54,174 nucleotides of DNA. It comes from Candidatus Hydrogenedentota bacterium (GTDB taxonomy: Bacteria; Hydrogenedentota; Hydrogenedentia; Hydrogenedentales; SLHB01). Both the position numbers and the translations under genes were made by a program. The notes beneath the pieces are model-generated. The model was not told where the DNA came from. It did not search any database and saw only the letters and a list, made by a program, of their open reading frames with translations. Shown here piece after piece: positions 829-1,020 of this stretch. The stretch covers positions 1-54,174 of the forward strand of contig JACRLJ010000075.1 in NCBI GenBank assembly GCA_016215105.1, written 5' to 3'. The first letter of the stretch is position 1. Each line of letters opens with the position of its first letter.

Positions 829-951
829 CTAGTTCGGCGGATTGAGGTGATCTACGAGGGAACAGATCGGTCCGCCTACGGCGCCCAGGACGACGTCACT
901 TACATGGCCATACTCGACTACTTGCGGTGCTTTGTACTCTTTGCGACCCAT
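829..951 (-). CDS. Small RiPP precursor-like peptide with lasso-type leader
   Basis: A 40-residue product, ATG at 951 and TAG at 829-831, preceded by AAAGGGAG a few bases upstream of ATG. The N-terminal half fits the leader pattern YxxPxLxxxG recognised by lasso-peptide B1/RRE proteins: Tyr6, Pro9, Val11 (for Leu), Gly15. With canonical spacing the usual Thr at -2 would be residue 21, here Val, and the core would start at Gly23. The C-terminal part is GAVGGPICSLVDHLNPPN, with one Cys (30) and one acidic residue (Asp34). With a Gly23 start there is no acidic residue at ring position 7-9; a start at Gly26 or Gly27 would put Asp34 at 9 or 8. No cyclase, protease or RRE gene is visible in the window, so the product is either an orphan precursor served in trans or a lasso-like peptide of another class. 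Gene reality is well supported; chemistry is inference. Confidence 0.6.
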   Translation of the reverse strand: MGRKEYKAPQVVEYGHVSDVVLGAVGGPICSLVDHLNPPN

Positions 952-1020
952 GACACTCCCTTTCGTTTGTTTTGCGGGCGACTGTGGTCCCTGTACCTTC
1001 ATATTGTCCGGGACCTCAAT

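Follow-up and report, generated by a model that had tools for sequence, protein, structure and literature searches.

The gene of 40 codons at 829-951 on the minus strand of the window (the whole 54,174-nucleotide stretch analysed here, contig C33 of the Candidatus Hydrogenedentota genome G000) is a genuine, dispersed RiPP precursor. We consider it probable that its product is processed in trans by enzymes encoded on another contig, C127, with modification of Ser31, cleavage by the lasso-type leader peptidase B2 and release of a linear peptide. B1, an RRE protein, would bind the YxxPxV motif of the leader, as its family and a matching Tyr-pocket Asp suggest; K, an HprK-like protein, and/or N, an NTP transferase, would modify the invariant Ser31; the cysteine peptidase B2 would remove the leader, probably after Leu22 as judged by spacing; and the product would remain linear because no macrolactam cyclase is detectable. 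What the sequences themselves establish is that a precursor family exists, that it lies beside B1, B2, N and K in two genomes, and that no cyclase can be detected.

The gene starts with ATG and encodes 40 amino acids plus a stop (MGRKEYKAPQVVEYGHVSDVVLGAVGGPICSLVDHLNPPN). Four bases before the ATG ends a strong ribosome-binding site, AAAGGGAG (956-963, minus strand), which is shared, slightly changed, by most paralogues; gene and site had both been described in the first-pass annotation, and both hold. A longer frame with its start at 1002 was rejected, as homology among the paralogues begins at MGRK and the conserved ribosome site stands just upstream of the MGRK ATG instead. On NF033521, the NCBIfam lasso RiPP family leader, which models the leader alone, the window leader scores 21.4 bits against a curated cut-off of 19, in keeping with the lasso-type leader recognised earlier. 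Moreover, leader differences in four independent pairs of paralogues are far from equal across codon positions 1, 2 and 3 (18/18/43, p=9e-5), and this excess at the third position argues for selection on the encoded protein. The precursor is not covered by any Pfam model, and Rfam gave no match within 780-1460.

Searching G000 with the window protein alone recovered seven further copies (E 3e-9 to 3e-4), and a profile search returned the same eight precursors and no others, all with E<1e-15, values that are circular for these members since the profile was built from them. C127 holds four of the eight; the others are single copies on C33, C23, C166 and C148. The earlier label "orphan" is therefore right for the locus, PF13471, PF00733 and PqqD all being without match in the window (which had correctly been said to hold no cyclase or protease gene), but wrong for the genome, given the further copies and the enzymes on C127. 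The G000 precursors have in common the leader pattern YxAPQVVEYGHVxD; their C-terminal parts differ in length, and each holds a Ser, usually in [IV]xSL. The window copy and those called C127a and C23 pass the NF033521 cut-off, which C127d, C148 and the tested copies of a second genome, G035, miss. By profile search the family occurs in 2 of the 68 genomes of the order, G000 and G035 only, and in 100 genomes searched with the precursor profile there were no convincing members beyond these two.

The leader comprises codons 1-22 (886-951, minus strand), with the RRE-binding YxxPxV motif at Tyr6-Val11 and Val21 at -2, and is followed by a putative core of 18 residues, GAVGGPICSLVDHLNPPN (832-885, minus strand), delimited by translation and paralogue alignment; cleavage after Leu22 is predicted from lasso spacing. 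Translation places Tyr6, Pro9, Val11 and Gly15 where they had been reported, and likewise gives Val rather than the canonical Thr at -2 and, if the core begins at Gly23, Asp34 at core position 12 and no Asp or Glu at 7-9. Ile or Val at -2 is documented in kinase-bearing lasso clusters (PMC10368454). Tyr, Glu, Gly and a single core Ser never vary among 12 precursors. This Ser (Ser31 in the window copy, codon 859-861, minus strand) is kept in 12/12 despite varying linker length, is the sole invariant residue of the core and is our proposed modification site. No core acid at the ring position is conserved among the 12, and Cys30 and the C-terminal NPPN, which had been singled out as features of the peptide, are not conserved among the paralogues either.

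C127 carries the sole PF13471 (B2) match in G000 beside the sole strong PqqD (B1) match, about 1.5-2 kb from the precursors on that contig; a second, weak PqqD match lies on C139. The order along the minus strand is K (L009:13120-14109, recognised by a short P-loop match and its likeness to lasso-cluster kinases), B1 (L009:12629-12916, PqqD 76.5 bits), B2 (L009:12181-12657, NF033537 93.6 bits), N (L009:11040-12248, NTP_transf_5, PF14907 135.5 bits) and two precursors, with two more precursors on the plus strand. Thus, of the enzymes that the first-pass annotation would have sought elsewhere in the genome, B1 and B2 are on C127 and a lasso cyclase was not detected; its reading of the gene as an RRE-guided precursor with a lasso-type leader is upheld by the NF033521 match and by B1 and B2 lying next to four paralogues. 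From the similarity of the leaders we infer that the orphan copies are served by C127 in trans. B1 matches the solved RRE-leader complexes TbiB1, PbaB1 and LppB. Placed by the D/Q-x3-F/L spacing given in PMC13381572, its Asp73 corresponds to Asp70 of LppB, the residue that binds the Tyr of the leader, and to Gln79 of PbaB1, which selects Trp (PMC13381572); Asp73 thus fits Tyr6 in the leader. Cys84, His119 and Asp135 of B2 are kept in G000 and G035 and plausibly form its triad, and a solved-structure search with B2 gave nothing useful. Among the flanking ORFs scanned, no exporter was recognised near the C127 precursors, and there is no SpI-like (SipW-type) peptidase among the annotated ORFs at the C127 or the G035 locus.

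In G035, of the same order (CANKTP010000052.1, Candidatus Hydrogenedentes), the gene order is B1-B2-N-four precursors-K, with an MFS gene after K. Identity to the G000 proteins is 62% for B1, 51% for B2, 44% for N and 50% for K. The G035 precursors have 28-29 residues (one, for example, ends MVHVNIQSLVG), and their cores, if cut at the lasso position, would be of 7-9 residues, which makes a ring plus tail impossible.

Among known systems, the one described here would appear to work most like the LPPs of Bacillota (Popov et al. 2026), with a lasso-type B2 replacing the SpI-like peptidase. LPPs are linear polyphosphorylated peptides of the Paenibacillus alginolyticus lpp cluster, which comprises an RRE, an HprK kinase, an NTP transferase, an SpI-like peptidase and an MsbA-type exporter but no cyclase, and whose linear product carries several phosphates on core Ser3 (PMC13381572). 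Common to both are a discrete RRE, an HprK-like kinase (here by a weak family match), an NTP transferase, the lack of a cyclase, a YxxPxV leader and a conserved Ser after the leader. In contrast to LPPs, B2 stands here in place of the SpI-like peptidase, no MsbA-type exporter was recognised among the ORFs scanned at the C127 locus, the leader reads YxxPxVVEYGxVxD rather than YxxPxVLxHQxIxFETxxS, Tyr and Ser are more widely spaced (by about 20 residues or more), the core is shorter, precursors are scattered and K is without the second Asp of the DD motif. We do not file the system as an LPP member because it has neither the SpI peptidase nor the LPP precursor motif. The B2-containing form of these cyclase-free RRE/kinase/NTP-transferase peptides appears to be new; however, the "new class" suggested earlier went too far, since cyclase-free LPPs have been published and Ile/Val at -2 was known. 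Another close system is the lasso peptide of the Bsf cluster of Bradymonas sediminis (Duan et al. 2023), where BsfK, helped by B1, phosphorylates precursor Ser3 and Ile occupies -2 (PMC10368454). B1, B2, the kinase and Ile/Val at -2 are alike; the core Ser is phosphorylated there whereas here its modification is proposed, and a Gly1-Asp8 ring is proposed there whereas here we find neither cyclase nor ring acid. Paeninodin and pseudomycoidin share the K, B1, B2, N gene set but also possess a cyclase, and their target Ser is C-terminal (review PMC9266682), and paeninodin-type leaders use Trp (PMC13381572).

Phosphorylation of the Ser by K is likely but not secure, because K has DG for DD and its kinase match is weak. 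It reaches 39 bits on TIGR04352 (cut-off 200) in a short match around the P-loop, which points to a kinase at family level only. By sequence it matched nothing in a solved-structure search; a kinase scan of genome contigs found only the G035 locus, and a kinase search of 386 genomes more distant kinases only. Where six other compared kinases read xDD, K of both G000 and G035 reads LLTDGM, the second Asp being Gly. With this residue missing, K may have a changed activity or none as a kinase. A His-Lys-Asp-Asp set, which may correspond in part to the DD pair, is reportedly required in lasso kinases (PMC9266682). The change in K leaves room for an alternative that we regard as rather unlikely, in which the HprK homologue K has changed or serves as a scaffold, and the Ser receives a nucleotide or sugar from N. 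Besides the DG change in both genomes, it would be consistent with the DDIDM motif of N, intact in both, and with the addition of hexose by PsmN in pseudomycoidin (PMC9266682). However, N of pseudomycoidin acts on phospho-Ser, that is, after K (PMC9266682), deleting LppN made no visible difference in LPP (PMC13381572), and K retains the His, the P-loop Lys and the first Asp. We are similarly doubtful of a bolder extension, a separate RiPP class of this uncultured phylum in which linear peptides of down to 7 residues, handled by a lasso-type RRE and B2, would receive a non-phosphate group on Ser from N and the DD-less K, with one locus serving scattered precursors.

A lasso peptide with a shifted core, the other reading offered at first, is hard to sustain with no conserved ring acid, relatives' cores of 7-9 residues and no cyclase detected. 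At the C127 locus, which lies several kilobases inside its contig, none was found. G000 has ten PF00733 places, of which the three strongest (235-331 bits) have N-termini like ordinary asparagine synthetases. Scoring on NF033535, the model for lasso cyclases, covered the three most unusual proteins, which reach 81-117 bits there and fit models of asparagine synthase or XrtA amidotransferase better; a genuine lasso cyclase from the same order, in G042, served as positive control and reaches 388 bits, itself short of the cut-off of 525. A cyclase could have been missed because both genomes are drafts (G000 95% and G035 88% complete). It is conceivable, if improbable, that an Asn-synthase-like protein elsewhere closes the ring in trans, at least where the precursor bears an acid within core positions 9-12. 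The lasso-type leader, B1 and B2, the several PF00733 proteins of G000, the Asp at core position 9 of the C23 precursor and the cyclase-bearing lasso cluster of G042 would all be in line with this. Yet no tested G000 protein fits the lasso cyclase model best, the C166 and G035 precursors have no acid in the core, PF00733 has no match in G035, and the cores of 7-9 residues are too short for ring plus tail.

A perfect 25-nt inverted repeat, GAATCGTTGAACCGTTCAACGATTC (1031-1055), precedes the start of the window gene by about 80 nt, and similar palindromes stand upstream of two paralogues, C23 and C127a. The related TTTGAAMNGTTCGAAGA has only two exact occurrences in 6.7 Mb, before these same two precursors. 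The three sequences include one double change and are compatible with a DNA operator or an RNA hairpin; they suggest that the dispersed copies are under common control. The palindromic element also bears on whether the orphans are merely decaying duplicates, spread by recombination and yielding no product of their own. Their patchy occurrence in the order, their setting among dispersed repeats and the lack of enzyme genes nearby would be expected of such duplicates, but every copy still has its reading frame, its start, a ribosome site and the invariant Ser, and together with the third-position excess and the common palindrome this makes decay very unlikely. A chance open reading frame, for which only its shortness and intergenic position could speak, is refuted by the paralogues and the codon-position evidence, and we give it practically no weight.

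As to the repeats, three similar copies of an ~85-base element, seen by eye at 593-676, 1230-1318 and 1373-1458, occupy the gap between the contig start and a nucleoside-symporter gene. Another repeat, at 668-821, recurs in L011 (5794-5990 and 9820-9947) and L013 (1774-1970) with 75-91% identity, and two copies of this type lie downstream of precursor genes at a distance of no more than a few hundred bases, which may be coincidence. That the orphans travel on a single mobile repeat cassette was considered and rejected: the 668-821 repeat is also found in L013, which is free of precursors, and similarity among precursor loci is mainly limited to the gene and its ribosome site.

These findings suggest that Bacillota are not alone in having cyclase-free relatives of lasso pathways, that B2, the lasso peptidase, can persist where the cyclase is absent, and that precursor genes can lie dispersed, far from the enzymes that serve them; genome mining based on clusters would hence miss half of this precursor family. 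The system also offers a clean test of the roles of K and N when no ring forms.

Related layouts occur elsewhere. G002 has a related cyclase-free layout with another precursor, MKKLYHRPKLTVRGSVRDLTLLIPPVSPI, and glycosyltransferases, and G019 shows a similar one up to the contig end. The lasso cluster of G042 (L044:7489-11795) combines an HprK-like kinase, a sulfotransferase, B1, B2 and the cyclase, and motif search found no precursor nearby. In G165, of another family, L076:954-5186 holds a sulfotransferase, N, B1, B2 and K, and no cyclase came to light within 14.5 kb; two other G165 loci, L073 and L075, have a cyclase. Among the loci from the search of 386 genomes, L074 also carries one, by weaker matches. 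Lastly, L072:4822-7259 of G368 encodes B1, a precursor (MERKEYTKPRLTDWGCISEVTRNNNQNGTIPK), one unassigned ORF, K, N and an ABC-transporter-like ORF, with neither B2 nor cyclase found in the stretch examined, an arrangement that closely resembles the LPP layout.
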